Shown here piece by piece: positions 36,070 through 54,044 of a stretch of 64,000 nt of DNA; positions within the stretch are counted from its first letter, which is position 1, and every line of letters starts with the position of its first letter. Source of the stretch: Microvirga sp. TS319 (GTDB lineage Bacteria > Pseudomonadota > Alphaproteobacteria > Rhizobiales > Beijerinckiaceae); the NCBI RefSeq assembly GCF_041276405.1, contig NZ_JBGGGT010000001.1, positions 1,728,501 through 1,792,500 of the forward strand. The letters are read 5' to 3'. The notes below the pieces were generated by a model, which was not told where the DNA came from, ran no database searches, and saw only the letters and a list, made by a program, of their open reading frames with translations. The position numbers were made by a program, and so were the translations under genes.

Positions 36070-38073
36070 ATGTTCTCGAACCTCGATCTCAAACAATTCA
36101 TCTTCGGGCGCCTGACGCTCGAAGCCATTCCCTACCATGAGCCCATCCTGCTCGGGACCTTCGCTGTCGTGGCCCTGGGCGGATTAGTTCTTATCGGAGC
36201 CATCACGTGGTATGGCAAGTGGGGCTATCTGTGGCGCGAATGGTTCACGAGCGTCGATCACAAGAAGATCGGCATCATGTACGTCATCCTCGCCATCGTG
36301 ATGCTGCTGCGCGGTTTCGCCGACGCGGTCATGATGATCACCCAGAAGGCACTTTCGGTCGGCGCAAACGAGGGCTACCTGCCGCCGCACCATTACGATC
36401 AGGTCTTCAGCGCCCACGGCATGATCATGATCTTCTTCATGGCCATGCCGTTCGTCACCGGCATCATGAACTACATCATGCCGCTGCAGATCGGCGCACG
36501 GGACGTCGCCTTTCCGTTTCTGAACAATTTCAGCTTCTGGATGACGGCGGGTGGCGCAGCGCTCACCATGCTGTCCTTGTTCGTCGGTGAATTCTCGCGG
36601 GCCACCTGGCTCGCCTATCCCCCATTGTCAGGGGCGGCATACAGCCCCGGGGTCGGCGTCGACTACTACATCTGGGGACTTCAGATCGCAGGCGTCGGCA
36701 CGACGCTGTCGGGCATCAACCTGATCGCCACGATCGTCAAGATGCGTGCCCCGGGCATGACGATGATGAAGCTGCCTGTCTTCTGCTGGACGACGCTCGC
36801 CAGTAACGCCATCATCGTGACGATCTTCCCGGTTCTCACCGTGACCTTGGTGCTCCTGTCGCTCGACCGCTACGTCGGAACGCATTTCTTCACGAACGAT
36901 TACGGCGGAAACCCGATGCTGTACATGAACCTCATCTGGATCTGGGGTCATCCGGAGGTTTACGTTCTCGTTCTGCCCGCCTTCGGCATCTTCTCGGAAG
37001 TCACATCGACCTTCTGCAGCAAGCGGCTGTTCGGCTACACGTCGATGGTCTACGCCACGATGGTGATTGCCCTCGTGTCCTGGCTCGTCTGGCTGCACCA
37101 TTTCTTCACCATGGGAGCAGGCCCTAACGTCAACGCCTTTTTCGGCATCGCGACGATGATCATCTCGATCCCAACGGGCGCGAAAGTGTTCAACTGGCTG
37201 TTCACCATGTACCGAGGAAAGATCCGGTTCGAGACTCCTTTCATCTGGGTGGTGGGCTTCATCCCGACCTTCGTGATCGGTGGGCTGACCGGCGTGCTGC
37301 TCGCGGTGCCGCCCGCCGACTTCGTGGTGCACAACAGCCTGTTCCTGGTCGCCCACTTCCACAACGTCATCATCGGCGGCGTGGTGTTTGGGCTCCTGGC
37401 AGGCGTCCAGTACTGGTTTCCCAAGGCGTTCGGCTACAAGCTCGACCCGTTCTGGGGCAAGGCGTCGTTCTGGTGCTGGCTGGTCGGCTTCTGGACCGTA
37501 TTCGCACCGCTCTACATCCTGGGCCTCATGGGCGTGACACGCAGGACGCAGCATTTCGAGGACCCGGCCGTGCAGCCGTACCTGACGATCGCCGCAATCG
37601 GCGTCTTCATCATCATGGCCGGCATCGTGGCGTTCCTGATCCAGCTCTTCGTCAGCTATCTCAGACGCGAGCAGCTACGCGATCTGACAGGCGACCCGTG
37701 GGACGGGCGAACCCTCGAATGGTCGACATCCTCTCCGCCCCCACCCTATAACTTCGCGTTCACGCCGGTGGTCCACGACCTCGATGCGTGGTGGGACATG
37801 AAGAAACGCGGCTACGACCATCCATTGGAGGGCTTCAAGCCGATCCACATGCCCAAGAACACCGGCGCAGGGGTTATCCTGGCCGGGCTCAGCACCGTGC
37901 TCGGCTTCGCTCTGATCTGGTACATCTGGTGGCTCGCAGCCCTGTCTTTCGTGGCTCTCATCGCGACCGCCATCATCCATACATTCAATTACAACCGGGA
38001 CTATTACGTCCCGGCGGAGGACGTCGTCCGGCTCGAAAGCCGAAGAATGGCGCAGCTCGCAGGAGAGGCCTGA
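36070..38073 (+). CDS. cyoB: Cytochrome bo3-type quinol oxidase subunit I
   Basis: 667-residue catalytic subunit of the heme-copper oxidase, reducing oxygen to water with ubiquinol and pumping protons. About 15 helices. Ligand regions are visible: '[16 protein letters not shown]' (low-spin heme), '[17 protein letters not shown]' (CuB His and cross-linked Tyr), 'HHFFTMG' (CuB) and '[15 protein letters not shown]' (both hemes). Full family length. Second of the cyo genes, 17 bases after cyoA and 4 before cyoC. Confidence 0.98.
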
Positions 38074-38077
38074 GCCG

Positions 38078-38704
38078 ATGCATGAAATGACTCCACCACC
38101 CGGCACTACGGCACCGGTCTTCTACCAGCACGAGGAGCACGCCCACGGCGAGGGAGGCACGCTGTTCGGATTCTGGATCTACCTGATGGGCGACAGCCTC
38201 ATTTTCGCGGTCCTGTTCGCCACGTTCGGCGTGCTCGGCCGCAATTATGCGGCGGGCCCGTCGGGAGCGGATCTGTTCGACCTTCGGCTTGTCGCCGTCA
38301 ATACGAGCCTCCTTCTCCTTTCATCGATTACCTACGGCTTCGCCATGCTGGAGATGGACAAGGAGCGCGTTGCCAAAACCCTCGCCTGGCTCGCGGTAAC
38401 CGGTCTGCTCGGTGCAGCCTTTCTCGGAATCGAGCTTTATGAATTCGCACATTTGATCAGCGAGGGCGCTACCCCTCAACGCAGCGCCTTTCTTTCCTCC
38501 TTCTTTACGCTCGTGGGGACGCATGGCCTGCACGTCACGTTCGGCATCGTCTGGCTCGTGACGCTGATGGTTCAGGTGCGCCAGCGCGGTCTCGTCGCGG
38601 AGAACCAGCGTCGGCTCATGTGCCTGTCCATGTTCTGGCACTTCCTCGACGTGGTCTGGATCGGCGTATTCACCTTCGTTTACCTGATGGGGTCCATGCA
38701 ATGA
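38078..38704 (+). CDS. cyoC: Cytochrome bo3-type quinol oxidase subunit III
   Basis: 208 residues with five helices; 'GFWIYLMGDSLIFAVLFATF' and 'FFTLVGTHGLHVTFGIVWLV' are standard subunit III blocks, followed by 'MFWHFLDVVWIGVFTFVYL'. Structural subunit of the oxidase. Its stop overlaps the cyoD start (ATGA), so the two are translationally coupled. Confidence 0.97.
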   Translation: MHEMTPPPGTTAPVFYQHEEHAHGEGGTLFGFWIYLMGDSLIFAVLFATFGVLGRNYAAGPSGADLFDLRLVAVNTSLLLLSSITYGFAMLEMDKERVAKTLAWLAVTGLLGAAFLGIELYEFAHLISEGATPQRSAFLSSFFTLVGTHGLHVTFGIVWLVTLMVQVRQRGLVAENQRRLMCLSMFWHFLDVVWIGVFTFVYLMGSMQ

Positions 38705-39108
38705 GTGAGGTTGCTGCGTCCGGGATCGGTCCGAATCAAGGTCGGAGTGAGGCGCATGGGGAGCATCACCCTCATGGCGCGCAGGGCACGTTCAGGAGCT
38801 ACATGACCGGCTTTATCCTGTCGGTCATCCTCACCGCCATACCGTTCTGGCTCGTCATGGGCAATGTCCTGAACGATACGCGCATGACCGGCATCGTCAT
38901 CATGGCGCTGGCGGCGGTACAGATCATTGTTCATATGATCTACTTCCTGCATATGAATACCAAGTCAGAGGGCGGCTGGACCTTCCTGGCCCTGCTGTTT
39001 ACGCTCATTCTTGTTGTTATCACGCTGGTTGGCTCGATATGGGTCATGTACCACCTGGACCAGAACATGATGCCGATGACGCCGCACGAGGCGTTGCAAA
39101 AGCCCTGA
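38701..39108 (+). CDS. cyoD: Cytochrome bo3-type quinol oxidase subunit IV
   Basis: 135 residues with three helices and an N-terminal His-rich polar tail ('EAHGEHHPHGAQGTFRSYMT'). The family block 'QIIVHMIYFLHMNTKSEGGW' is present. Assists assembly of the binuclear centre. Its ATG overlaps the cyoC stop, and its TGA overlaps the proposed CTG start of the SURF1 gene. Confidence 0.96.
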   Translation: MSEVAASGIGPNQGRSEAHGEHHPHGAQGTFRSYMTGFILSVILTAIPFWLVMGNVLNDTRMTGIVIMALAAVQIIVHMIYFLHMNTKSEGGWTFLALLFTLILVVITLVGSIWVMYHLDQNMMPMTPHEALQKP

Positions 39109-39848
39109 CTGCCAAAAGCATCGCTGCGCTGGCCGCATTCGACATCGCAGCGATTCTGCTCGTGGTCGCCCTCGCCTCGCTCGCCGTCTGGCAGGTCCAT
39201 CGCCGCGCCTATAAGCTCGACCTGATCGCGCGCGTGGAGACGCGGGTTCACGCAGCCCCAACCCCTGCGCCAGGGCCGGAAGACTGGGCAGGCATATCGG
39301 CTGGCACGGACGAGTACCGCCGCGTAATGATGACGGGGACCTGGGTTGATGATCGCTCGACGCTCGTCCAAGCCGTGACGGATCTGGGTGGTGGATATTG
39401 GGTCATGACGCCTTTAGCCCGCGATGACGGGACGACAATCCTCATCAACCGAGGCTTCGTGCCAGCGACCGAACGCGATCCGGCCACGTGGCGACCTCAG
39501 GACCCGGGACCCGTCACCATAGTGGGCCTCCTGCGCATGTCCGAGCCAGGTGGTGCCTTTTTGCGGGCAAACGACCCGACTTCGGATCGCTGGTTTTCCC
39601 GCGACGTGGCGGCGATCGCCGCGTCGCACCGCTTAGCGAAGGTCGCACCCTACTTCATCGATGCCGAACGCACCCCCGGCAAAAGCGGCTTGCCCGTCGC
39701 AGGGCTGACGGTGATCGCCTTTTCGAACAATCACCTCGTCTATGCACTCACCTGGGGCGTTTTGGCGATGATGGCCGCAGCCGGGGCAGCCTTCGTCAAC
39801 GTGGAGCGGCTGCATCCTGGATGGCTCGGACCGCGCGAGCCAACGTAA
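39105..39848 (+). CDS. SURF1-family oxidase assembly protein
   Basis: About 247 residues. SURF1 layout: N-terminal helix ('FDIAAILLVVALASLAVWQV'), periplasmic domain with 'YRRVMMTGTWVDDRSTLVQA', 'GGYWVMTPLARDDGTTILIN' and 'RGFVP', and a C-terminal helix ('HLVYALTWGVLAMMAAAGAA'). It helps insert heme into heme-copper oxidases; here it follows a quinol oxidase operon. No ATG, GTG or TTG fits the normal start: the nearest ATG (39039) would overlap cyoD by 70 bases. A CTG at 39105 in a CTGA overlap with the cyoD stop gives the right N-terminus and is preceded by GAGG. I propose that start with moderate confidence; the gene itself is certain. Confidence 0.85.
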   Translation: MTAKSIAALAAFDIAAILLVVALASLAVWQVHRRAYKLDLIARVETRVHAAPTPAPGPEDWAGISAGTDEYRRVMMTGTWVDDRSTLVQAVTDLGGGYWVMTPLARDDGTTILINRGFVPATERDPATWRPQDPGPVTIVGLLRMSEPGGAFLRANDPTSDRWFSRDVAAIAASHRLAKVAPYFIDAERTPGKSGLPVAGLTVIAFSNNHLVYALTWGVLAMMAAAGAAFVNVERLHPGWLGPREPT

Positions 39849-41104: not shown

Positions 41105-42277
41105 TTACCGGGTTGGCCGTCCGCCGTTTTCCCGCGCTCTCCTCCATTCGATGAAATCCTTGTAGAGATCCTCGTAATGGCCCCATGAGATTGGAAGAGA
41201 ACAGTTGCCCTCCGAGGTGGCGAATGTCTCGAAAGCGCGCTGCTCGTCCGTTCGCTGGATCCTGAGCTCCAATAAGTCCTGCACTGGCTTGAAGCGCAAC
41301 CAGCCGGGAACTCCCGCTTCCCGGATATCCTTCCAACGCGGAGGATGGCCGAGCCGATCGAGTTCGTAGGAATGAGCGTCGATCGCTTGCGCTAAGCGCA
41401 CCAGGCGCCGGTAGCGAGAACTTCCCTCGGGCCAGTTGCGGACAGCGAGGACGCGGCTGACCGCCGCAGTCGCAACCTGCTCATCTGCCTCGACCAGATG
41501 CGGATAATCATCACTGGTGAAACGGGCCGGAGGATAGTCGGGTGCGAGCGATCCAGCCGGAAGGGGGAGCAAATGGAACTGCCCCTCGGATGGAAAGGCG
41601 AGCACTTCGCTCGAAGGACTCGAGGCGAGCAGGATCGCGGCCTGGATCTCGCCCGAGACCAAGCGCTGCTGAGCCGTGCGCTGATCGTCCGTCGTGAACT
41701 CCGGCCTGATCCCGAGACTTTGGAAGATGCGGCGCGCCGTCAGGTGAGTACCGGTACCCACCCGGTCGATGTTGACCTTGCGCCCTTCCAGTTGCCCAAT
41801 CTCCGTAATGCCGCGGGGGGCCAGGACATGAAGCTCCTTGCTGGGGACCTGAAAGATATAGCGCAGTTCGTCCTTGGCGCTGCCCTGCAGGGACTCCGGC
41901 AGAGACCTGAGAGCATCTGTCTGCACGATCGCGACATCGGCCTCAGGCCTGTTGATCAGCTTCAAGAGGTCCTCGACCGGCCCCTGGCTGGCTATCGCTT
42001 GGAGCTGCGGATCGTCGCCGTCGAGGATCGTGGCCAAGTCGGCAATAGTGCGCGAATATGCGCTGTTCTCCTCACCTGATACGATGCGAATAGGCGGCAT
42101 AACGCGGGCCCTCTCGGAGCCTCGCCGCGAGGGAGCTTTCGGCGGCAGCGGGACAGGCCCTAATGAGGCACCTCTCGCTCGCCTAATTCCGTTTTCAGTC
42201 TCGGGCGGCTCGCTGGAGCAGCCTCCCAGGCAGAGATAGAAAGCCGCAACGGCAAGTACGCAGACCGAACGCAACAC
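41105..42277 (-). CDS. TAXI-family TRAP-type binding lipoprotein
   Basis: About 390 residues. A lipoprotein signal ('VCVLAVAAFYLCLGGC') is followed by a Pro/Arg-rich linker and a TAXI-type solute-binding fold: 'PIRIVSGEENSAYSRTIADL', 'ADVAIVQTDALRSLP', 'LRYIFQVPSKELHVLAP' and 'LEGRKVNIDRVGTGTHLTA'. TAXI proteins usually serve TRAP transporters for organic acids, but no TRAP permease is nearby. It may instead be a lipid-anchored sensor or binding component of the type I secretion island. I favour the GTG at 42277 because it opens directly into the lipoprotein signal; the frame extends to another GTG at 42319. It is the last gene of the minus-strand series that begins at 49309. Confidence 0.8.
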   Translation of the reverse strand: MLRSVCVLAVAAFYLCLGGCSSEPPETENGIRRARGASLGPVPLPPKAPSRRGSERARVMPPIRIVSGEENSAYSRTIADLATILDGDDPQLQAIASQGPVEDLLKLINRPEADVAIVQTDALRSLPESLQGSAKDELRYIFQVPSKELHVLAPRGITEIGQLEGRKVNIDRVGTGTHLTARRIFQSLGIRPEFTTDDQRTAQQRLVSGEIQAAILLASSPSSEVLAFPSEGQFHLLPLPAGSLAPDYPPARFTSDDYPHLVEADEQVATAAVSRVLAVRNWPEGSSRYRRLVRLAQAIDAHSYELDRLGHPPRWKDIREAGVPGWLRFKPVQDLLELRIQRTDEQRAFETFATSEGNCSLPISWGHYEDLYKDFIEWRRARENGGRPTR

Positions 42278-42444
42278 GACAGTGCCCCCAAAGGTCCCCA
42301 GCCCTGTCTCAGCTTCCACTGGAAGGTTGATACGCAGGTGCGGCGGCGTCCATCACAATGAAGTGGGCGGCCAGCTTTCCCTTATGTTATGGTTAATGTC
42401 TGGGACGGTTCTGCCAGGCAGGAAACGCTGCTCCGGATCCAAGG

Positions 42445-43524
42445 TCAGATCGTAGCGAAATCGATCCGCACGGTTGTTTCCTGATCGACGTAGGCGGTCT
42501 GCAACGCGTCTACGTCCATATCGATCTCGCCTGCCCGATCCGTGATGTCCACCGTCGCATCCTGGTCGGCAACAGCGTCCTGGTCGACGTCGATCTCGAC
42601 CTTGACGACATAGCGCTCCTCCAGGTCGTCCTCGATGTCGATGTCGATGTCGACATCCTGGTTCATCTCAAGGCTCTGATCGATGCTTACGTCTCCACCC
42701 CTGTGCCCGTCGCTAAGGTGGATGTCCAGGGTCGTGTTCTGCTCGACCGCAATCCTATCCTTCAGGAAGAGATCGACATAGAGGACATCGTCCACGTCGA
42801 AAATCCTCAGATCGATATCGACGCTTTGATCGATCCGCATGTCTTGATCGACCGTCACGAAGAAGCGTCCTTCACCGTCGATATCGATATCAATATCGGC
42901 GTCCTGATCCATCAGAAGATCCTGGTCGATATGAAGGCGAGCGACGACCTTTCCCACATAGCCCTGGACGATGACGTGCGCGTCCTGATCCACCTCGGCT
43001 ACCTGCGTTACGCTGATGGTGTGGGCATCGTCGTGCTCGGCGGCATCGCCGGCGGGCGTGCTCGGGCCGACCGGCTCTCGGTTGATGGTATGGGCGTCAT
43101 CGTCTCCATCCCGCTCATGCCCATCCCGTTCGTGCTCTTCCTGCGCATTCCCTCGTGGCAAATGGCCGCCAGCTCCCCTGTCGCCGGATGTTGCGATCGG
43201 CTTGGGCAGCTCAATAGTCGGGGTCCCGCCGCTGGTCTCAACCTGAGCGTGCTCTGCTTCTCCCCTTTCAAGAGCGGAGACGTGCAGTGGCGCGGATGAA
43301 TGGGGGGCCGCTTTGATCGGCATCGATGCGCGCCCGCCGGCATCGTCCTCGTGGTGAGGAGACAGATCGGCCAACGGGTGCGCTGCCGTAGCGACAGTAG
43401 AAGGCGAACCAGTCTCCTCCATGATGGGAGCGCCATCGAAATCCGCCTCCAGCAGAACGTCGTCATCCAGATAAGGCTGGATGAAGGGCAGCAGATCCCG
43501 AATACCTTTGTCCGCAGGAAGCAT
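42445..43524 (-). CDS. Large acidic repeat protein (candidate type I secretion substrate)
   Basis: 359 residues, translation start well supported by GGGGAGG six bases before the ATG. The first 140 residues are irregular (Pro/His/Glu-rich, 'EEHERDGHERDGDDDAH'). Residues from about 165 to the end carry about five copies of a loose unit '(I/V)DQ(D/S)..(M)(D/N)Q(D/S)(A/V)DIDIDI', separated by more ordinary beta-strand sequences such as 'GRFFVTV' and 'RYVVKVEI'. No signal peptide, no membrane segment, no RTX glycine nonapeptides. The C-terminus ends VRIDFATI, an acidic-then-hydrophobic ending like those of type I secretion substrates. It follows the secretion genes and hydrolase on the same strand. 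It shares its Asp-alternation with two other genes at 48043 and 48671. Function unknown; calcium or metal binding at the surface is a guess. Confidence 0.8.
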   Translation of the reverse strand: MLPADKGIRDLLPFIQPYLDDDVLLEADFDGAPIMEETGSPSTVATAAHPLADLSPHHEDDAGGRASMPIKAAPHSSAPLHVSALERGEAEHAQVETSGGTPTIELPKPIATSGDRGAGGHLPRGNAQEEHERDGHERDGDDDAHTINREPVGPSTPAGDAAEHDDAHTISVTQVAEVDQDAHVIVQGYVGKVVARLHIDQDLLMDQDADIDIDIDGEGRFFVTVDQDMRIDQSVDIDLRIFDVDDVLYVDLFLKDRIAVEQNTTLDIHLSDGHRGGDVSIDQSLEMNQDVDIDIDIEDDLEERYVVKVEIDVDQDAVADQDATVDITDRAGEIDMDVDALQTAYVDQETTVRIDFATI

Positions 43525-43728
43525 CCGATCCTCCCCATGCTCGGAGGCACGTGGTCCTATGATGAGCTTGTCCGCTTCGTATTCTAGAGACCTGTTCCGG
43601 TGAGCCGGGCTAATTCTTTCAGATGAGGAACCGCAGAACTGGGAGGATGGAAGGCTTTCGAACCCCGATTATTCAACACTGGATGCATCAAGTAAGCCAG
43701 TTGGTTCGCACTGGCGATCCTCGAGCGC

Positions 43729-44694
43729 TCACTCGTTTTCGGCGCGCCGATTCCGGCACTCGGCTGAGGGCCGCAAGGTGCTACGCAGGCAGGGGCCGAA
43801 CACGGCAATAGCGCTTTCGGGACGGGCGTAGAGTTTCCTGCTGCCATGCCCCAGATCCGGAACCTCAACCAGGGACCAGCCAAACGCCAGTCCTCTCGCC
43901 GCTGCGCTGGCCTTGGCGGCCTCATAGGCCGCATGACCGCGTTCGTACCGGGTCGCTCCCTGACGCTCAGCGCCCGGGCTCTTATCGAGACCTGTCCGGT
44001 TGGTATCTTGGCCCGACAGGAGAACCACGATGGGCGAGGCAAGATAGTGCTGACGGTCAGCGTCGCTGACGATCGTCAGACCGCCAAAGCCATAAGGGTA
44101 TTTGCGCTCCCACATGGGCATAACATAGCTGCCGGGATTGGCCAGCACGATCCGGAGCGCCCCGTTCGGAAAGAACGCCGCAAACCGTCCGAGGAACTGC
44201 GCCCCGGCCGAATGGCCGATCAGAGAATACGGCATGTCCGGCCTCCCCTCCCCGACGCGCAGCGCATCAATGAGCTCCAACACGAGATGTCCCGTGCGCC
44301 TCTCCTTTGGTTTGAGGCGGAAACGTCTCCTTCCATCCTCCTTGACGAGATCGCCGAGGCCCCCGAACTGATACGCCCAGCGAGGGAAGCGCGCCTCGTC
44401 GAACAGGGGGGCGACCACGAGAGCGCAGCCCGCTTCGGCCAAGGGGAGAGCATTGTCGCGGGCGAGGCTCGGATTGCGGTCCGAACCGTGAAACACGACG
44501 ACGAGAGGTCCGTTCCGAAAGCAGTTCGCCTTGTAGGCCTGCACGCGCCAGGTGATTGCGCCAACCTGCACCTCCCGCTCCGACTTGCCCTGCGCAAAAG
44601 GCTCGCTCCGCAGCGGAGAAGAGGTGCCCGCGAAGAGCAGGGCCAGCCACAGGTGCGACGAGCGAAATCCTGCCACGACCGACCGACCGCTCAT
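43729..44694 (-). CDS. Secreted alpha/beta hydrolase
   Basis: 321 residues with an N-terminal signal peptide ('SSHLWLALLFAGTSSPLRS') and an alpha/beta-hydrolase fold: oxyanion strand 'PLVVVFHGSDRNPS', nucleophile elbow SLIGHSAGAQFLGR with GHSAG, and a late 'VPDLGHGSRK' that should carry the catalytic His. It resembles LpqC/poly-hydroxyalkanoate-depolymerase-like esterases. It starts 3 bases after the stop of the membrane-fusion protein gene, so it is in the type I secretion operon. Its own Sec signal means it need not use that exporter; it may process or tailor a secreted polymer or surface component. Confidence 0.85.
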   Translation of the reverse strand: MSGRSVVAGFRSSHLWLALLFAGTSSPLRSEPFAQGKSEREVQVGAITWRVQAYKANCFRNGPLVVVFHGSDRNPSLARDNALPLAEAGCALVVAPLFDEARFPRWAYQFGGLGDLVKEDGRRRFRLKPKERRTGHLVLELIDALRVGEGRPDMPYSLIGHSAGAQFLGRFAAFFPNGALRIVLANPGSYVMPMWERKYPYGFGGLTIVSDADRQHYLASPIVVLLSGQDTNRTGLDKSPGAERQGATRYERGHAAYEAAKASAAARGLAFGWSLVEVPDLGHGSRKLYARPESAIAVFGPCLRSTLRPSAECRNRRAENE

Positions 44695-44697
44695 CTC

Positions 44698-46053
44698 TCA
44701 ATCCTCGCGAAAGGCCCGGTTGAAGCTGTCGAGAATCGGACGAAGCACATAATTCGCAGCCGTAAACTCGCCGGTCTTGATCAGCACTTCGACCGGCATG
44801 CCGGGCATGATCTCCACTTCCGGCAGATCCTTCAGGGATGCTTCGTTGATCCGGATCCGGGCGACATAATAGGGAAGCTCAGTCTCCTTGTCGACGAGCC
44901 GGTCGGCCGAGACGTAGGTCAGCACGCCTTCGACAGGGGGCACCCGCCGATGCTTGTAAGATAGAAGGCGCACGTGGGCCTCAAGACCAGTACGGACCAG
45001 ATCGATGTCCTCCGGCTTGACCCGGACTTTCACGATCAGCCGATCCTGGCGAGGAACGAGATCCATAAGAGGCTCACCGGCGGCGATCACCCCGCCTGGC
45101 GTATGGATGCGCAGATCCGTGATGGTGCCGGCCTCGGGCGCGCGAATCTCCGTGCGGGCGAGCACATCGCCCGCTGCCTGGATACGCTCGAGGATCTGGA
45201 AGATCAATGCCTGGGTTTCGCGCAAACTCTGGGCGACTTCGGTGTGGAAGTCGCTTTCCAGCTTCAGGATCATCGCCTGGGATTCGCCGACTGACTGCTC
45301 CGCGCGCGAGATCTGGGCCAAGGCGTCTCCGCGGCGTCCGTCGATCTCCGCCTGCTCACGTTCGAGCTGCAGGAGACGCGGCTTCGTCTGCAGGCCCTTG
45401 GCGACGAGCGGAGCTATGGCGGAGACCTCCTCCTTGATGATCTCCGCCCTCTTCCTGGCAGCCTCCTCCTGGAAATGAAGACCGACGATTTCCCGTTCCG
45501 TTTGCGCCCTACGCTGCTGGATGATTTCGATCCGCGACCCTTGAAGCCTTCGGCGGGTATCGAAGATCTTGGCCTGTCCGGCCAAGATCTCCTCCAGGTC
45601 CGCACTGCTCTTGGCAGCCAACCGGAGAGCCATTGGGAACTCGATCGCCTCGCGACTGTCGCGCTCCGCCAGGAGACGCGCCTCGCGGGCCTGCGCGTCC
45701 CAGAGCTGCCCCTGGAGTACCTGAACGGCGGCCCGGGCTCTCGTGCCGTCAAGGCGGATCAGCACCTGACCCGGCGTGACCTCGTCGCCATCCTTTACAA
45801 GGATCTCGGCCACAATGCCTCCCTCCAGGTGCTGGATGGTCTTGCGGCTCGACTCGGCTTCGATGGCTCCCCCTGCAATCGCTGCGCTTTCCAAAGGCGC
45901 ATAAATCGCCCACACCCCGAACCCGACCACGAAGATGCCGACGAGAGCGAAGGCGTTGGTCGCCAGGAGGCGCAAGCGCTGGAGCGGGGTCTCTGACGGC
46001 GGCGGCAGGACGGCCGCAAGCTCATGGACGAGAACGTTCCTCGATTCTCTCAT
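44698..46053 (-). CDS. Type I secretion membrane-fusion protein (HlyD/PrtE family)
   Basis: 451 residues. One inner-membrane helix ('LVGIFVVGFGVWAIYAPLES') is followed by the beta-barrel/lipoyl half ('RKTIQHLEGGIVAEILVKDG', 'GQVLIRLDGTRARA'), a long coiled-coil hairpin (about 105-290) and the returning half ('RAPEAGTITDLRIHTPGGVI', 'GMPVEVLIKTGEFTAANYVL'). This is the PrtE-type adaptor that links an ABC exporter to a TolC-like channel. Its ATG overlaps the ABC gene's stop (ATGA). No outer-membrane channel gene is in the window, so a shared TolC elsewhere is expected. Confidence 0.94.
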   Translation of the reverse strand: MRESRNVLVHELAAVLPPPSETPLQRLRLLATNAFALVGIFVVGFGVWAIYAPLESAAIAGGAIEAESSRKTIQHLEGGIVAEILVKDGDEVTPGQVLIRLDGTRARAAVQVLQGQLWDAQAREARLLAERDSREAIEFPMALRLAAKSSADLEEILAGQAKIFDTRRRLQGSRIEIIQQRRAQTEREIVGLHFQEEAARKRAEIIKEEVSAIAPLVAKGLQTKPRLLQLEREQAEIDGRRGDALAQISRAEQSVGESQAMILKLESDFHTEVAQSLRETQALIFQILERIQAAGDVLARTEIRAPEAGTITDLRIHTPGGVIAAGEPLMDLVPRQDRLIVKVRVKPEDIDLVRTGLEAHVRLLSYKHRRVPPVEGVLTYVSADRLVDKETELPYYVARIRINEASLKDLPEVEIMPGMPVEVLIKTGEFTAANYVLRPILDSFNRAFRED

Positions 46054-47885
46054 GACACAGCCCTCTGAGTCTCCTCACCTGCCCCTGTCTCATCGGATCC
46101 CTTGGCCTGCGGCGGCTCGGAGGAGTGGATGTCCGGGAGCGGCCTCGCCCTCTTGCGGGTGGTAATCTGAGGATTTCTGACAGGAAGAATCGTGCGTCCG
46201 CTCCTGATCTTTTCGGCAACCTCGCGTCGCCGTCCAAAAGCATTCATCGCCCCGTTGTCGAGCACGAGAACCTTGTCGGAAAGATTCAAGATCCCGAGGC
46301 GTTGAGCGATGATCACGATGGTCGTTCCGCGGTCGCGCATTTCCTGGATCGCCTGCCGCAGCGCCTCTTCGCCGTCGGGATCGAGGCTGGCGTTTGGCTC
46401 GTCCAGGACAATGAGCTGGGGATTGCCGAAGAAGGCTCGTGCCAGGCCGAGCCGCTGACGCTGTCCGCCCGACAGCCGCAGGCCCCCCTCCCCGATATCC
46501 GTTTCATAGCCCCTGGGAAGGCGCATGATCGTCTCGTGCAATCCCACCAGGGTAGCGGCAGCGATCACATCCTCTGACGGGGCGTCCTGAAGGCGGGCGA
46601 TGTTGTCGCGGACCGTGCCACCGAACAGCTCGATGTCTTGAGGGAGATAACCGAAATAATGGTGGCCGCCGGAGGCCTGCCAGATTGCGATGTCGGCACC
46701 GTCTAGGCGGACATGCCCCGATGTGGGGGCGAGCGTGCCCGCGATGAGGCGCGCAAGGGTAGACTTTCCCGCCCCTGAAGGCCCCACCACGCCCAGGATT
46801 TCGCCCGGATCGAGCGAAAAGGTCAGTCGGCGCACGGTCGGCGTATCCGCTCCCGGAGGCGTGAACGTCACCCGCTCCAGAGTGAGAGCGCCGCTGGGGC
46901 GCGGCAGCCTCATGACCTCCCGGCCTTGAGGAGCCGCCGCCATGATCTTCTGAAGGCGGCTGTAGCCGAGGCGCGCACTGGTCACGGCCTTCCAGGTTCC
47001 TATGGCCCCCTCAACCGGACCCAGAGAGCGGCCAAGCAGGATCGAGCTCGCGAAGATCGCACCCGGGCTGACGTCGTGCACGATCACGAGCCAAGCGGCG
47101 CAGGCCATGACGATAACCTGAGTGAGAAGCCTGACGAAGCGTGCGAAGGCCTGGATCGCTGCGGCCCTCGCCGAGGCGGTGAGTTGCGCCTCCTTGGCAT
47201 AGGATTGGTTCTCGTGCAGGAGCCGGGCGACCCCCGGAAGCATCCCCATCGTACTGATAGCCTCGACATTGCGCAGGAGCGACTCGAACCGGTGCTGGCT
47301 CTCGACCCAGGCGGCGCTTGAGCGCGCAAAAAGGTTCCGCGTCACCATCTCATTGAGCAGCGCCAACCCGAACAGAACGATCGACGCCGTGAATCCAATG
47401 ACGCCGAGCAGCGGATGAACAAGGATCATCGCGAGAATGAAGATCGGCGTCCACGGAAGGTCGAATAGCGCCGTGCAGGCCGTTCCGCTGAAGAACGAGC
47501 GCAGCCCGCTCAGATCACGCCACGCCTGCGCCGCTGCCGACGGATCATTGCGCAAGGCCGATTGAACAGCGCTGATCAGTACAGAAGCCTGGAGGCGGTC
47601 ATCGAGCCATGTGCCGATACGGCCAAGCATGCTGCGCCGCAGTGCCTCCAGGATCGCGTGCACAGCCAACGCGACAACCACGATGGAGGTGAGCATGACG
47701 AGGGTATCGAAACTCCTACTCGACAGCACATGGTCATAGATTTGGAGGAGATAGAGAGGAACCGTCAGGGCCAGCAGGTTCACAAAGAAGCTGAGCGCGA
47801 AGACTAGGAGGAGCGAGACCCTGCAGAGGCTGAAGGCGCGCTCAATTTCCGTCTTCTTGCGAGTTTTCATCCAGGTGAGAGCCAT
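46050..47885 (-). CDS. Type I secretion ABC exporter (PrtD family)
   Basis: 611 residues. The six-helix membrane domain (about 25-300) has 'LLALTVPLYLLQIYDHVLSS' and 'FDLPWTPIFILAMILVHPLL', diagnostic of PrtD-type exporters. The ATPase domain has Walker A GPSGAGKST, signature LSGGQRQR and Walker B LIVLDEPNASLD. There is no N-terminal C39 peptidase, so cargo is exported uncleaved through a C-terminal signal. The C-terminal 60 residues are a charged extension. The ATG at 47885 is preferred to the longer frame at 47966. The cargo is most likely one or more of the acidic proteins encoded on both sides. Confidence 0.95.
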   Translation of the reverse strand: MALTWMKTRKKTEIERAFSLCRVSLLLVFALSFFVNLLALTVPLYLLQIYDHVLSSRSFDTLVMLTSIVVVALAVHAILEALRRSMLGRIGTWLDDRLQASVLISAVQSALRNDPSAAAQAWRDLSGLRSFFSGTACTALFDLPWTPIFILAMILVHPLLGVIGFTASIVLFGLALLNEMVTRNLFARSSAAWVESQHRFESLLRNVEAISTMGMLPGVARLLHENQSYAKEAQLTASARAAAIQAFARFVRLLTQVIVMACAAWLVIVHDVSPGAIFASSILLGRSLGPVEGAIGTWKAVTSARLGYSRLQKIMAAAPQGREVMRLPRPSGALTLERVTFTPPGADTPTVRRLTFSLDPGEILGVVGPSGAGKSTLARLIAGTLAPTSGHVRLDGADIAIWQASGGHHYFGYLPQDIELFGGTVRDNIARLQDAPSEDVIAAATLVGLHETIMRLPRGYETDIGEGGLRLSGGQRQRLGLARAFFGNPQLIVLDEPNASLDPDGEEALRQAIQEMRDRGTTIVIIAQRLGILNLSDKVLVLDNGAMNAFGRRREVAEKIRSGRTILPVRNPQITTRKRARPLPDIHSSEPPQAKGSDETGAGEETQRAVS

Positions 47886-48042
47886 GGGCGAAACATCTCC
47901 GCGATGGCGTAACAGGAAGCGGGTATGACCTGTCCCTAATTGATCTGATATTATCGGACGAGCCATGTGAACGGATACGCTGCATCCGACATCAAGATCA
48001 GCGCCCGGACACCGTCCGGGCGCCTCAAATCAGCAGAATGCA

Positions 48043-48333
48043 TCAGGCGAAGTCGAAATCGATGTCAATATCCGCATCCTGATCGGCGTCCTGCTCCTGA
48101 TTGACGTCGACATCAACGTCCTGATCCTGGTCAACATCGACATCAGCATCGTTACTCTGATCGTTGTCGTTGTCGTTATCCTGATCGGTGTCGTTGTCGT
48201 TGTCCTGATCGATGTCGACATCAGAGTCCTGATCCGCGTCTACATCCACGTCTTGGTCTTGATCTTGGTCGAGGTCCTGATCAATATCAGCATCGATATC
48301 GATGTCGAAATCGTTGTCATCGAAGTCAGCCAT
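48043..48333 (-). CDS. Ultra-acidic alternating-Asp protein
   Basis: 96 residues, with GGGAGG eight bases before the ATG. By direct count it has 44 Asp and 1 Glu, and no Lys, Arg, His, Gly, Pro, Cys, Trp or Tyr. From residue 8 to 58 every even position is Asp, and again from 62 to 76 and 82 to 94. The odd positions are Ile/Val/Ala/Leu/Phe or Gln/Asn ('DIDIDADIDQDLDQDQDQDV'). As an extended strand this would show a solid Asp face and a hydrophobic or amide face. No signal peptide; the end is DIDIDFDFA. It lies 157 bases upstream of the type I secretion ABC gene on the same strand, so it is the best candidate substrate. I know of no described family; RTX and other calcium-binding repeats do not fit. 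Confidence 0.85.
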   Translation of the reverse strand: MADFDDNDFDIDIDADIDQDLDQDQDQDVDVDADQDSDVDIDQDNDNDTDQDNDNDNDQSNDADVDVDQDQDVDVDVNQEQDADQDADIDIDFDFA

Positions 48334-48670
48334 AGTGAAACCTCCCATTCGGAAGCTTGATGAAAGCCACCCTGGAAAACCTTTGTACCAGGAGCAGATC
48401 GACGATCGAGCAATCGGCAAATCACCTTGTGCTTCGTCGATTCATGATCATTCGCCGGTTCGCACCACAACGGCTAGTTGCCAAATCGCATTCGAACCAA
48501 AGGCCCATATTTCCGACCCGGCCGTCATCCTCATAGGTTATGGCCGCCGGGACAGGTGATGGCTCAAAGTAGTACGACCAACTCCGATACCTACTCCATT
48601 CATACTCTTGGCCACAAACGGGAACCGAGCCCGGACTTCCAGGCTCGCCGCATCTCACGCCCAAACTGGA

Positions 48671-49309
48671 TTAATCATTGACGCCACTCAGGTCGACCAT
48701 GATATCGACATCTGCATCCGCCAACGCATTCTCATCGAAGTCGACGCCGATCTTGTCGCCATCTTCGGCAACGAGGCCCCGGACTACCGCGTTGATAAGA
48801 GAGTCGATGCCCACAGCGGGATCTACATCAATATCACCGCGAACCTCCACGTCGACATCGATGTTCCTGTCAACCTCGGAGTCGTCTTCGATATCACTGT
48901 CAATGCTGTCCTTGTCCCCTTCATCGATATCGATATCGATGTCGCTCTCAATCTCGACATCGTCCTCAACCTTCGCGTCGATCTCAACGACGATGTTGCC
49001 GTCATCGTCCTCGCTTATTTCAACTTCAACGTCGATCCTCTGATCAACCTCCAGCCTCTGAACGCCTGCTACATCGACCTCTCGACCATCACTGTCATCA
49101 TCGACGTCGACATCGATATCCTGATCGACCTCGCCGTTCTGATCGATTTCCGTATCGAGATCGACGCTCACAGGGCGCGGGCTGATGACATCTATCTCTA
49201 TGTCGACATCGTCATCGGTTGAGGAATTCTGATCGACGTCGATTTCCCGGTCCAGGACGTCATCATCGGTCTTTTCCGTCGAGCGCCCATCATTGTCGTC
49301 GTTCTTCAT
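48671..49309 (-). CDS. Acidic Asp/Val/Ile-alternating protein
   Basis: 212 residues from the ATG at 49309 (GGAG nine bases upstream; the longer frame to 49348 lacks a site). Dominated by Asp/Glu alternating with Val/Ile ('VDQDIDVDVDDDSDG', 'VEIESDIDIDIDEGDKDSID', 'VDRNIDVDVEVRGDIDVD'). More relaxed than its 96-residue neighbour, with a few Lys/Arg/Gly and a more ordinary stretch near 170-190 ('IDSLINAVVRGLVAEDGDKI'). No signal peptide or membrane helix. First gene of the minus-strand series leading to the secretion genes, and divergent from the LuxR-type regulator across a 520-bp AT-rich region. Confidence 0.8.
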   Translation of the reverse strand: MKNDDNDGRSTEKTDDDVLDREIDVDQNSSTDDDVDIEIDVISPRPVSVDLDTEIDQNGEVDQDIDVDVDDDSDGREVDVAGVQRLEVDQRIDVEVEISEDDDGNIVVEIDAKVEDDVEIESDIDIDIDEGDKDSIDSDIEDDSEVDRNIDVDVEVRGDIDVDPAVGIDSLINAVVRGLVAEDGDKIGVDFDENALADADVDIMVDLSGVND

Positions 49310-49832
49310 GGCAGGACTCCACAACATAAGGCTCTGGCGACCCAGCATTATTTTATTTGCGAATGAGAAAAAGAGACCAAGTTGGGCGAGATGTTTTGAA
49401 TAGGCGGACTACAGGATCCCTGAGTATTAAGCCGATCGAATTTGGGATTACGCTCGGCTTCGTTATACGCTTGCCGAGAACATTACCTGTTCGAATGGGC
49501 ATGAAGAGGCGTATCTTGGGCCCTTAAGAAAATAAGTTGATGCTAGAATAAGTTTCCAATCTTCGTCCATTTATTTGCCGACGCCCTCCTATCGGACCAA
49601 TCATTTTGCGATAATGCAAATGGGTAATACCCAAAGCATGAATAATATGGTCAGATCATCCTAGGATTCACTTCAACAAGAAGTCTGATGCTATCCCCTC
49701 GCAGAGTTATTTTAGGTCGATTGCCCGGCGTATGAATGAATTGCGCCCAATGCACATGGTCCGAGATTAGGACGTCGCGACGAGACACTGACTGTGGAGT
49801 TTTCATCGCAGTAGGGCAGAGCAAGGGAAGCA
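49310..49832. promoter_or_regulatory. AT-rich divergent promoter region of the acidic-protein locus
   Basis: 520 bases without a gene and visibly richer in A/T than the surroundings. It separates the acidic-protein genes (minus strand) from the LuxR-type regulator (plus strand). TGGGTA-A-TACCCA at 49621-49633 is a perfect palindrome, and CATTTTGC..GCAAATG at 49602-49622 is an imperfect one; both are candidate regulator sites. AGGGAAG precedes the regulator start. Confidence 0.55.
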
Positions 49833-50630
49833 ATGCCTATGTCGAGCTTAGCGAGACACCATCAACCTGAATTTCGTCAAGGTTGCATCGTCATCATTGA
49901 TGACGAGCTCCTCTCCCAGGATTGCCTAGCTGAAGCGATAAGGGGAGAATTTCCCCAAATGAGGATCATCGGAATTCCGACTGTCCATGACCTCGTCCGG
50001 CCTGCGGAAATTGCGATCGAAGGGGTTCTTCTGAAAGTTCATCCCCGTTCCGGCAACTCCCACAACCTGACGCACGACGTTAGGGCTGTCTGCCAATATT
50101 TCGCCCGTGCCCCCGTGGTCGTCATATCGTCCAGGGACGACATTTCCACTGTTGAAGCTGCGGCTGCCGCCGGAGCGCGCGGCTTCATTCCCGTCACGAC
50201 CTCCTTCAAGATTGCGATCGCCGCCCTTCGGCTGGTGCTGGCCGGCGGAACTTACTATCCGCATTCGTTCAACGGCAAGCTCGACCCGAGCAACGTCGTT
50301 CTCGAAGTCACTCATGAAAATACCATAGAGTATCCTTCGGATCTTTTATCGCACCCAGCTCTCCCTACCGATGTTCCGCAGGACGAGCTGGGATACGAGA
50401 AGGAGTTCAACGGCTTCAATGCAGCCTTTACCGCTCGGGAAATTGATGTTCTGACTGCTCTGCGGCAGGGACGCTCCAACAAGTGGATCGCGCATCACCT
50501 CAACCTGTCAGAGAATACCGTCAAGGTTCATATCCGAAATATTATGCGGAAGCTGAATGCAACCAACAGGACTCAAGTCGTCGTCCTGTCTCAGAGCCTC
50601 GTCCCAAATGGAAAGATGAATGGTGGTTAA
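49833..50630 (+). CDS. LuxR-type regulator with a degenerate receiver domain
   Basis: 265 residues. The N-terminal half has a response-regulator fold starting with the acidic pair in 'CIVIIDDELLSQDCL' (Asp23, Asp24). The phospho-acceptor strand reads 'AIEGVLLKVHPRSG', with no Asp where 'LLDxxMP' is expected, and the usual Lys near the end ('GARGFIPVTTSF') is also absent, so it should not be phosphorylated. The C-terminal LuxR/NarL helix-turn-helix is intact ('FTAREIDVLTALRQGRSNKW', 'HLNLSENTVKVHIRNIMRKL'). No sensor kinase is nearby. Divergent from the acidic-protein genes, which it probably controls. Confidence 0.9.
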   Translation: MPMSSLARHHQPEFRQGCIVIIDDELLSQDCLAEAIRGEFPQMRIIGIPTVHDLVRPAEIAIEGVLLKVHPRSGNSHNLTHDVRAVCQYFARAPVVVISSRDDISTVEAAAAAGARGFIPVTTSFKIAIAALRLVLAGGTYYPHSFNGKLDPSNVVLEVTHENTIEYPSDLLSHPALPTDVPQDELGYEKEFNGFNAAFTAREIDVLTALRQGRSNKWIAHHLNLSENTVKVHIRNIMRKLNATNRTQVVVLSQSLVPNGKMNGG

Positions 50631-50993: not shown

Positions 50994-53900
50994 TCAACGA
51001 ACGAACCGGCGCAGGAAACGGGAGAAATCCTCCACCAATACGAACGCTGCTGGGACGAAGACAAGTGAGAGGAGTGTCGAGACGACGAGACCGCCGATAA
51101 CCGCTATCGCTATGGGCGCCCGCGCCTCCCCGCCGTCGCCGATGGCGAGTGCCGAGGGGACCATGCCGGCGACCATGGCGACCGTGGTCATGATGATCGG
51201 TCTGGCGCGCTTGCGTCCGGCGTCGACAATAGCATCCTGCGGACTCATCCCCTTCGACTGCGCCTCCAGCCCGAAATCAACCAGGAGGATCGCATTCTTC
51301 GTCACAATGCCCAGCAGCATCAGGATACCGATCGCAACCGGCATACTGATGGGCTGGCGAACAGCCAACAGGCCTAGCATCGCGCCCCCAATAGAGAGCG
51401 GCAGTGAGAAGAGAATCGTCAAGGGCTGCAGGAAGCTCGCGAAAAGGACAACCAGCACGCTGTAAACGAGAAGGAGACCCGCCAGCATGGCGGTCGAGAA
51501 GCCCTTGAACAGATCCGTCATGACCTCAGCGTCACCCGCCTCGCGCACGGTGACGCCGGCTTCGGGAGTACGCGCAGCGGGCAGTGCGAGTATCGCCTTG
51601 ACGGCATCGCCGAGCGCGGCTCCGCCGACCAGGTCAGCCTCAACAGTTACGCTGCGGGAGCGATCGTGGCGCTCAATCGAGGCCGGGCTGCGGCCAATCT
51701 CCACGTCCGCCACCGCGGCGAGCGGAATCGGCTGCATGCCCGAGGGCCTGCCCTGTGGCGGAGAAAGGCGTACCGCATCGAGTTCTCGCGGGTCCGTGAG
51801 CGTCGCAGGATCGAGGCGAACGCGAATGGGAACGAGCTGGTCGGCGGCATCGAAGTGGGGAAGGTTCGTTTCGACATCGCCAACGGTCGTGACGCGGATC
51901 GCGCGCGCAAGCGCCGCGGCGGGAAGCCCGAGCGCAGCAGCGTCGACAGGCCGCGGGACAATGCGAACCTCCAGCCGGTCGAGGGACGCGGTGGAGATCA
52001 CATTGGCAAGCATGGGAAGACGGCGCATCTGCGCCGCTAGGTCGGCCGCCGCAGTCGAGACTTTTGCGCCATCGGCACCCATGACGATGATCATGACGGG
52101 CCTGAGACCGTTTGCGTCGAGGAAATAGGAGCGGATATCGGGTACGTTGACGAGTTCCGCCGCAAGGACGGCTTCGAGCTCGCGTTGGGTGCGGCTTCGT
52201 TCAGAACGGGGTGTATAGTTGACAACAAAGGTAGCATCGCGTGCCTCCGGCGTTCCGATTGGCACACGCCCTCCTTGAGCCAGAACGGAGCGCACCTCCG
52301 GCACCTCCTTGAGACGATGCGTGATGAGATCGGCGGTGCGACGGGTGTCGGCGAGGTCGACACCAGGAGGGAGTTCGACAACAATGAGTGAGCGGCTCGT
52401 ATCCTGCGGGGGCAGAAGCGAAGTCGGCAGTAGCAAGGCACTCGCGATCGAGGCAACGAAGACGGCAAGCCCGATAACCACCGTAGCAATTCTGTGACGG
52501 ACCGACCAAGCGACAAGCCGCGTATAGGTGCGCAGCACCCGGCCCTCCCTTTCGAGGATGTCCGGTACGGCAGGGAGGCCATAGGCCGCCATCATCGGCG
52601 TGATGAGGCGGGCGACGAGCAGTGAGAAAAACACCGCGACTGCAATAGTAACACCGAATTGCCTGAAGAATTGGCCCGCAACACCGCCCATGAAGCTTGA
52701 GGGTACGAAGATTGCAATCAGGGTCGCTGTCACGGCGATGACGGCCAGTCCGATCTCGTCTGCGGCCTCGAGCGCCGCTTCGTAGGCACCCTTTCCCATT
52801 CGCATGTGGCGGATAATGTTCTCGACCTCGACAATGGCGTCGTCGACGAGAATGCCGGTCGACAGCGTAATGGCAAGGAGTGTCACGAGGTTGAGCGAGA
52901 AGCCCATGACATCCATAACCCAGAAGGTCGGGATGACTGAGAGCGGCAATGCGATCGCCGCAATCAGAGTGGCGCGCCAGTCCCAAAGGAAAATAAACAC
53001 CACGATGACGGCGAGTATCGCGCCCTCAACGAGTGCGCTCATCGTGGCTCTGTAGTTGCCGACTGTATAGTCGACCGGTGAATCGATAAGGCGAATCTCG
53101 TAGTCGGGGTTCGCTCGCTGCAGGACAGCGATTCGATCCGCAACCCCGCGAGCGACGTCGACGTCGCTCGCGCCACGGGCCCGGGAGACTGCAAAGGCGA
53201 CGATGGGCTCACCGTCAAAAAGGGCGAAGGTCCTCGGCTCAGCCTTGCCATCCGTCACAGTACCGAGATCATCGAGACGAACTGTGCCGCCAGTCGGCAG
53301 GACGATAGGAATGGCAGAAAGGCTTGAGATGCTGCGAACGCCGGCAAGCGTGCGGATCGTCGCATTGCGGCCTCCGACCTCTACGCCCCCGCCTCCAACG
53401 TTGACGTTTGCCGCACGCAGTTGCTCATTCACATCGACGACAGTGACACCTGCGTCCGCCAGCTTCAGGGGATTGAGATGGACTGCGATCTCGCGCTCGG
53501 AACCGCCAATGCGCCTGATACCCGCGATTCCACGGAGTCCGAGCAGCGCCCGCTTGACGGTCTCGTCGACGAACCAGGAGACTTGCTCCGGCCCGCGGTC
53601 TTTAGACTTTACCGCATAGGTGACGATCGGTAGGCCAGCAATTTCGATGCTCTGGACGATGGGAGCCTGCACGGCCTGGGGTAGTTCAGCGCGGATGCGC
53701 GTCACTGCATCGCTAACGTCGTTGACCGCAGTGGTCGCATCCATCTCAAGGTGAAACTCGATCACCGTCGTCGAGAGGCCATCCGTAATGGTTGAGGAGA
53801 TGTGACGCACGCCAGCCACGCCTGCCACGGCGTTTTCGACAGGTGTCGTTACCTGGGTTTCAATCTCCGTCGGCGATGCGCCGTACATCGGCACAGTAAC

Positions 53901-54044
53901 GGACACGATCGGAAGGTCGACCGCAGGAAGGCGCGTAACCGGCAGCTGTCGGAAGCTCATAAGACCAAGCAGACACAGCACGAGGAAGAGGACAATAGCA
54001 GGGATCGGCTGGCGGATCGACGCTGCCGATATCGGGATCCTCAT
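50994..54044 (-). CDS. RND multidrug/lipid efflux pump, inner-membrane subunit (AcrB type)
   Basis: 1016 residues with the AcrB layout: 12 helices and two large periplasmic loops. The helix-4 proton-relay Asp pair is present in 'STGILVDDAIVEVENIIRHM', and the helix-10 region has 'LLGIVTKNAILLVDF'. Pumps drugs, solvents or lipids using the proton gradient. Its start overlaps the adaptor gene's stop by four bases. The nearness to hopanoid genes suggests a possible envelope-lipid role, but it is the drug-efflux (HAE1) type, not the hopanoid transporter HpnN. Its 3' end lies right beside the IS6-like remnant. Confidence 0.95.
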   Translation of the reverse strand: MRIPISAASIRQPIPAIVLFLVLCLLGLMSFRQLPVTRLPAVDLPIVSVTVPMYGASPTEIETQVTTPVENAVAGVAGVRHISSTITDGLSTTVIEFHLEMDATTAVNDVSDAVTRIRAELPQAVQAPIVQSIEIAGLPIVTYAVKSKDRGPEQVSWFVDETVKRALLGLRGIAGIRRIGGSEREIAVHLNPLKLADAGVTVVDVNEQLRAANVNVGGGGVEVGGRNATIRTLAGVRSISSLSAIPIVLPTGGTVRLDDLGTVTDGKAEPRTFALFDGEPIVAFAVSRARGASDVDVARGVADRIAVLQRANPDYEIRLIDSPVDYTVGNYRATMSALVEGAILAVIVVFIFLWDWRATLIAAIALPLSVIPTFWVMDVMGFSLNLVTLLAITLSTGILVDDAIVEVENIIRHMRMGKGAYEAALEAADEIGLAVIAVTATLIAIFVPSSFMGGVAGQFFRQFGVTIAVAVFFSLLVARLITPMMAAYGLPAVPDILEREGRVLRTYTRLVAWSVRHRIATVVIGLAVFVASIASALLLPTSLLPPQDTSRSLIVVELPPGVDLADTRRTADLITHRLKEVPEVRSVLAQGGRVPIGTPEARDATFVVNYTPRSERSRTQRELEAVLAAELVNVPDIRSYFLDANGLRPVMIIVMGADGAKVSTAAADLAAQMRRLPMLANVISTASLDRLEVRIVPRPVDAAALGLPAAALARAIRVTTVGDVETNLPHFDAADQLVPIRVRLDPATLTDPRELDAVRLSPPQGRPSGMQPIPLAAVADVEIGRSPASIERHDRSRSVTVEADLVGGAALGDAVKAILALPAARTPEAGVTVREAGDAEVMTDLFKGFSTAMLAGLLLVYSVLVVLFASFLQPLTILFSLPLSIGGAMLGLLAVRQPISMPVAIGILMLLGIVTKNAILLVDFGLEAQSKGMSPQDAIVDAGRKRARPIIMTTVAMVAGMVPSALAIGDGGEARAPIAIAVIGGLVVSTLLSLVFVPAAFVLVEDFSRFLRRFVR

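Follow-up and report, generated by a model that had tools for sequence, protein, structure and literature searches.

A conserved gene module pairing a PrtD-type type I exporter with highly acidic proteins in Microvirga and related bacteria

Type I secretion systems (T1SSs) can export their cargo unfolded, as described for HasA (PMC8277102), and RTX repeats are reported to fold on calcium once outside the cell (PMC7730722). In Paracoccus denitrificans, the T1SS-adjacent protein BapA has 2211 amino acids (aa), 891 Asp-Ala repeats and a predicted pI of 2.4, and biofilm formation is described as stimulated by calcium and dependent on both BapA and its T1SS (PMC5588039). Here we analyzed a minus-strand gene set of Microvirga sp. 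TS319, located at positions 42445–49309 of a 64,000-nucleotide stretch of contig NZ_JBGGGT010000001.1 (hereafter the window), which encodes a PrtD-type exporter, its HlyD-type partner and three very acidic proteins, termed ACID1, ACID96 and ACID2. The surrounding genome is 6.26 Mb in two contigs.

Both this locus and BapA/BapBCD have a highly acidic protein with alternating Asp beside T1SS genes, so that a preliminary description, which had called the Asp-rich cargo unlike that of ordinary type I loci, was incomplete on this point (PMC5588039). Compared by description, the two systems differ in several respects: BapA is a single giant protein with a continuous Asp-Ala tract, whereas the present locus has several proteins of 96 to ~500 aa; the TolC-type gene bapD lies within the bap cluster, whereas here TolC is encoded elsewhere in the genome; BapA is annotated as an RTX family member, whereas the acidic proteins of the window have no RTX repeats; and the account of BapA describes no Gln-striped domain like that of ACID2 (PMC5588039). 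Given the BapA precedent, a matrix or adhesin role is the most economical reading. The CabABC system of Vibrio vulnificus likewise encodes an extracellular matrix protein, essential for biofilm, with its own T1SS, but it is gammaproteobacterial and its description mentions no Asp-alternating proteins (PMC6978666). The PrtD/PrtE exporters of proteases and lipases belong to the same exporter subfamily, and the tails of AprA and TliA consist of an acidic residue followed by hydrophobic ones; unlike the three window proteins, TliA carries glycine-rich GGXGXD repeats (PMC2642768). The count of GGxGxD was zero in ACID1, ACID96 and ACID2, as the preliminary description had noted. No description of the module was found in the open-licence literature that was searched.

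The open reading frames (ORFs) of the exporter pair and the three acidic proteins, previously placed together on one strand, were verified at their coordinates (Table 1). The PrtD protein scored 643.9 bits against TIGR01842 (cut-off 510.15) and the HlyD/PrtE-type adaptor 374.5 bits against TIGR01843 (cut-off 208.65), both above the cut-off. One TolC-type channel (TIGR01844, 367.2 bits, over the cut-off) was encoded on the other contig. The minus-strand genes are transcribed in the order ACID1, ACID96, prtD, hlyD, a hydrolase-like gene, ACID2 and a TAXI-like gene, and a LuxR gene is divergent from ACID1. We refer to the position directly before prtD, held by ACID96 in the window, as the slot.

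We are nearly certain that the exporter and acidic-protein genes form a conserved module. Besides the window, 23 relative loci in seven named groups were compared (L018–L036 and L060–L063; L059 was dropped as a duplicate of L025), with presence called at E 1e-5 and 30% identity. PrtD, HlyD and ACID2 were present in all 23 loci and the LuxR gene in 22, and an ORF with more than 10% Asp filled the slot in all 23, although in L063 it was an 82-aa fragment. ACID1 was present in 12 loci, the hydrolase in two and the TAXI protein in one. Of the dedicated system drawn earlier, PrtD, HlyD, ACID2 and the slot protein thus keep their place and ACID1 keeps it in about half of the loci, while the TAXI protein and the hydrolase are outside the core. 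Of these loci, 19 had been retrieved with ACID2 as the query and the other four with PrtD; because of this bias, linkage was also asked from the exporter side. Of 48 genomes from the genus, 14 had a PrtD orthologue at 69–100% identity, and ACID2 lay within ~5 kb in 14/14, while ~20 kb around each of the next PrtD matches (53%, 46%, 45% and 41%) held no ACID2. The recurrence in related genomes that the preliminary description had called for was therefore found from both sides. Beyond the core, the clusters found in at least three of 25 regions were antisense frames over core genes (up to five regions) or three ordinary genes (three regions each).

In a search of 5.8 billion proteins (E 0.001), ACID2 had 112 homologues besides itself, and those listed with an organism name came from Microvirga, Phyllobacterium, Aminobacter, Pseudaminobacter, Mesorhizobium, Allomesorhizobium, Arvimicrobium and Ensifer. 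A scan with named matches in other genera gave at least 15 loci. ACID2 was present in nine of 61 genomes (60 relatives and the window's own), and all nine belong to the window's genus. Order-wide sampling recovered only the window's own genome out of 397 in both searches, a weak negative with four to five candidates scored per genome, which sits badly with the named matches in other genera.

In four pairs of relative loci, each compared for ACID1, the slot protein and ACID2, the third codon position was the most variable in 12/12 comparisons (for example, 6/5/41 changes by codon position for the slot protein of L020 and L027), indicating that the reading frames are real. In a PrtD tree, the 24 acid-linked PrtDs were separated from eight other exporters by a branch supported at 100/99, under a midpoint root and with several of the eight on long branches. 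Around the four closest exporters that the window's genome itself encodes (37–41% identity), ~20 kb held neither an ACID homologue nor an ORF with a DxD density above 0.15.

Taken together, we put at roughly 0.55 the probability that the locus encodes a dedicated PrtD/HlyD exporter of polyanionic proteins that would be unfolded inside the cell and fold outside, probably with calcium, to form a coat on the cell surface or a biofilm matrix. The acidic proteins would remain unfolded in the low-calcium cytoplasm and pass through PrtD/HlyD, with TolC from elsewhere in the genome completing the channel, and the folded product outside would be the coat or matrix. If true, Hyphomicrobiales would have a recurring module that couples an exporter to a matrix; several of the genera listed above are soil or root-nodule bacteria.

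The acidic composition was examined by comparing DxD triplet counts with 2000 shuffles of each protein's own letters. ACID96 is 45.8% Asp with a net charge of -45 in 96 aa, and it had 40 DxD triplets against 10.8 (SD 2.9) in shuffles. ACID2 (net charge -63) had 20, whereas shuffles gave 8.4 and none of the 2000 exceeded 19. ACID1 (net charge -66) had 21 against 11.9 (SD 3.0); with a shuffle maximum of 23, its alternation taken alone is the weakest of the three. The Asp alternation described earlier for the three proteins thus goes beyond shuffling in ACID96 and ACID2 and is least secure in ACID1.

Such extreme charge also suits another reading, in which the exported proteins, soluble or surface-bound, serve mainly to capture Ca2+ or toxic cations or to nucleate calcium mineral, without any ordered fibre or matrix. 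The BapA authors speculate that BapA nucleates calcium mineral (PMC5588039). We consider this polyanionic sponge or mineral template unlikely, as ACID2 has more than charge, namely columns of invariant Gln, Gly and Leu together with a confidently predicted sheet, and as the slot protein is Gly-rich with 11–26% Asp in 10/23 loci and only fragmentary in L063.

ACID1, ACID96 and ACID2 had no Pfam match at E 0.1, and their NCBIfam matches were far below cut-off. Searched against the window's genome (E up to 1), ACID1 and ACID96 matched only themselves and ACID2. The homology query with ACID96 returned one match, probably because of its low complexity, and its counterparts were located by position instead. 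ACID1 is likely a distant paralogue of ACID2, judging from an hhalign comparison of their profiles (probability 98.4, a figure that composition could inflate), from its leading Gln spacings of 6 and 27, which are the same as in ACID2, and from a long hairpin at residues 76–130 of its low-confidence model, of a kind also predicted in ACID2.

The slot gene had similar ends and a variable middle across the relative loci, with the largest ORF reaching 513 aa. In the 12 loci with ACID1, the slot protein was Asp-alternating (Asp 22–46%, Gly no more than 6%). Of the 11 loci in which ACID1 was not detected, ten had a Gly-rich slot protein (Gly 24–33%), and the fragment in L063 had 12% Gly. Nine of the Gly-rich relatives had zero to two GGxGxDxU motifs each, and GGxGxD occurred eight times in L025 and 11 times in L060. 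This pattern is suggestive of ACID1 partnering the Asp-alternating slot form. The 11 loci without ACID1 grouped together in the PrtD tree with weak support (89/71), so the slot type may reflect a single switch and is not independent evidence. In L063 (11326–16123), the slot gene and the LuxR gene were both fragmented, and this locus is possibly a decayed copy of the module.

The C-termini bear on the route of export. A tail of an acidic residue followed by small or hydrophobic residues (DFALV/DFALA type) was found in 95 of 100 ACID2 rows with a loose pattern and in 56 with a strict one, and slot proteins ended in FDFDFA, DFSFGV or similar in most loci. We infer that this acidic-plus-hydrophobic C-terminus is an export signal, resembling the AprA and TliA tails, although the same source describes such a tail motif as dispensable in one lipase (PMC2642768). 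From these features, the acidic proteins are likely exported by the adjoining PrtD system. They might otherwise stay in the cytoplasm as DNA mimics, chaperones or regulators of the exporter, the true cargo being another protein such as the hydrolase; Asp-rich proteins can indeed mimic DNA. This seems very improbable to us: the hydrolase occurs in just 2/23 loci, and its N-terminus, read by eye, resembles a signal of its own; the exporter is always accompanied by ACID2 and the slot protein; and the conserved C-terminus fits T1SS cargo.

None of 33 ACID2 family rows matched a Pfam family, and one homologue (P0088) was labelled bactofilin (CcmA) by its source, probably a misannotation caused by repetitive beta sequence. 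In an AlphaFold2 (AF2) model built with 100 sequences, residues 1–165 of ACID2 were mostly unordered and residues 169–358 formed seven antiparallel strands of 19–26 residues each, with pLDDT of ~87–97 from residue 171 on and a whole-chain pTM of 0.52. On this model, the inner strand faces (one parity) were 64–78% hydrophobic and 0–14% acidic, and the outer faces were 30–66% acidic, lowest on strands 1 and 4. The hydrophobic face of each strand carries Gln at two positions six residues apart, with Asp256 replacing one of them, giving stripes of 13 Gln and one Asp across the seven predicted strands. Gln autocorrelation was highest at 6 and 27, and seven of the 11 invariant columns were stripe Gln. 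In a register test, the chosen positions deviated from the turn sum by no more than two residues in 6/6 hairpins, and 132 of 200,000 random same-parity placements did likewise; this is a consistency check only, because the positions, including Asp256, had been picked beforehand. The predicted register fits two Gln stripes across the sheet.

These features invite comparison with functional amyloids. Curli CsgA has repeat units with Gln placed to stack, and the predicted ACID2 model also shows regular repeats with Gln in stacking positions. ACID2 sheets might accordingly join edge to edge, with the two Gln stripes along the fibre, forming an analogue of curli or Fap that is exported by a T1SS. 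The two stripes across all seven predicted strands, on the hydrophobic face, fit such a fibre, and FapC appeared in the list of Protein Data Bank matches at E 5.4, which is not significant. Curli and Fap amyloids use a different export route, ACID2 is predicted to be an antiparallel meander with an acid-rich face and no significant fold match, and comparison with solved functional amyloids gave no likeness of fold. We regard an amyloid-like fibre as doubtful.

The ACID2 model allows the coat or matrix reading to be spelled out further. At low calcium, the Asp-faced sheet would be kept apart by self-repulsion, and at high calcium it would settle; Asp stripes could in this way take over the task of RTX repeats, calcium screening of the Asp face replacing the RTX folding trick. 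The slot protein, of either type, would act as a spacer polymer, with ACID2 as the structured organiser. If true, this would be a second route, besides RTX repeats, by which type I cargo stays unfolded in the cell and folds outside it. It makes one question directly testable, namely whether calcium folds a type I substrate that lacks RTX repeats. ACID2 also offers a confidently predicted fold, to which the searches matched no solved structure. A more specific version, which we hold to be possible rather than likely, makes ACID2 a new class of secreted structural polymer. In it, the antiparallel sheet, with its Asp face and two Gln ladders buried, would be gated by calcium; it would leave the cell unfolded through its own PrtD-type system and polymerize edge to edge into an extracellular fibre or sheet, Asp-alternating and Gly-rich spacers being interchangeable. 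This too would solve the type I folding problem without RTX repeats.

Several observations weigh against a dedicated exporter of coat- or matrix-forming polyanionic proteins. ACID1 is missing from 11/23 loci, and in as many the slot protein is not Asp-alternating, so that a polyanionic polymer is not a conserved property of the slot. The AF2 model of ACID1 is weak (mean pLDDT 49.4), and its C-terminus (SGVND/SDIDA) is a poor fit to a secretion signal. In ACID2, two strands have an outer face that is only 30–37% acidic, AF2 may be over-confident on repetitive beta sequence, and structure searches gave no significant match for the domain.

The divergent regulator matched GerE (5.1e-21), and Response_reg only at E 0.027. 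The position that we take to be the receiver phospho-acceptor, placed by eye from the receiver motif, reads Lys in the window protein, and none of 24 aligned members, two of them from sister loci without ACID2, has Asp there. The regulator therefore probably acts without an ordinary phosphorelay, and in the proposed system the LuxR protein would control the gene set without ordinary phosphorylation. The hydrolase had a weak match to Abhydrolase_1 (E 0.066, below cut-off). The TAXI protein matched NMT1_3 above cut-off (7.3e-14) and TIGR02122 below it.

Two starts were trimmed from the listed ORFs (Table 1). The 125-aa ORF most likely starts at 48333, at an ATG behind GGGAGG, and the 225-aa ORF at 49309; alignment with relatives also suggested both starts. 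Some PrtD relatives start with MALTW or MALNW, so the true prtD start may be at ~47885.

Table 1. Features of the locus and its flanks in window coordinates.
Feature	Position	Strand	Basis or remark
ACID1, 212-aa acidic protein	48671..49309	-	listed ORF extends to 49348; start trimmed
ACID96, 96-aa Asp-alternating slot protein directly before prtD	48043..48333	-	listed ORF extends to 48420; C-terminus DIDFDFA
PrtD-type T1SS permease/ATPase	46050..47966	-	TIGR01842
HlyD-type periplasmic adaptor	44698..46053	-	TIGR01843; 4-nt overlap with prtD stop
Alpha/beta-hydrolase-like protein, N-terminal signal-like stretch (by eye)	43729..44694	-	accessory, not core
ACID2, 359 aa, predicted disordered N-terminal half and beta domain	42445..43524	-	homologues, relative loci
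ACID2 residues 169–358, predicted seven-strand antiparallel meander	42451..43020	-	AF2, face analysis, register test
ACID2 C-terminal tail DFATI, candidate PrtD-type secretion signal	42448..42462	-	tail pattern and described motif
TAXI/NMT1-like lipoprotein, lipobox by eye	41105..42319	-	NMT1_3; flank, not core
LuxR/FixJ-type regulator, degenerate receiver	49833..50630	+	GerE; divergent

Among the more distant exporters, L065 and L067 (PrtD at 46% and 45%) were sister PrtD/HlyD loci with a LuxR neighbour of the same kind and Gly-rich frames starting with MPSWYP, and they had no ACID2; they hint at a wider LuxR-linked exporter family for low-complexity proteins. Three tandem paralogues of 80–87 aa (SDHDxTA..AADSG..SPxTQ type) stood directly before the PrtD at 53% (L064, 8530–9407), another candidate set of small non-RTX cargo. 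In the window, a long plus-strand antisense frame over ACID1 (48608–49222) is itself Asp-rich, because codons of the GAC/GTC type read alike on both strands, and is a trap for gene callers. Read by eye, the island is flanked by cytochrome oxidase-like genes at 36070–39848 (subunits of 667 and 208 aa and following genes), and the LuxR gene by a minus-strand RND-type efflux pump gene at 50994–54044 (1016 aa).

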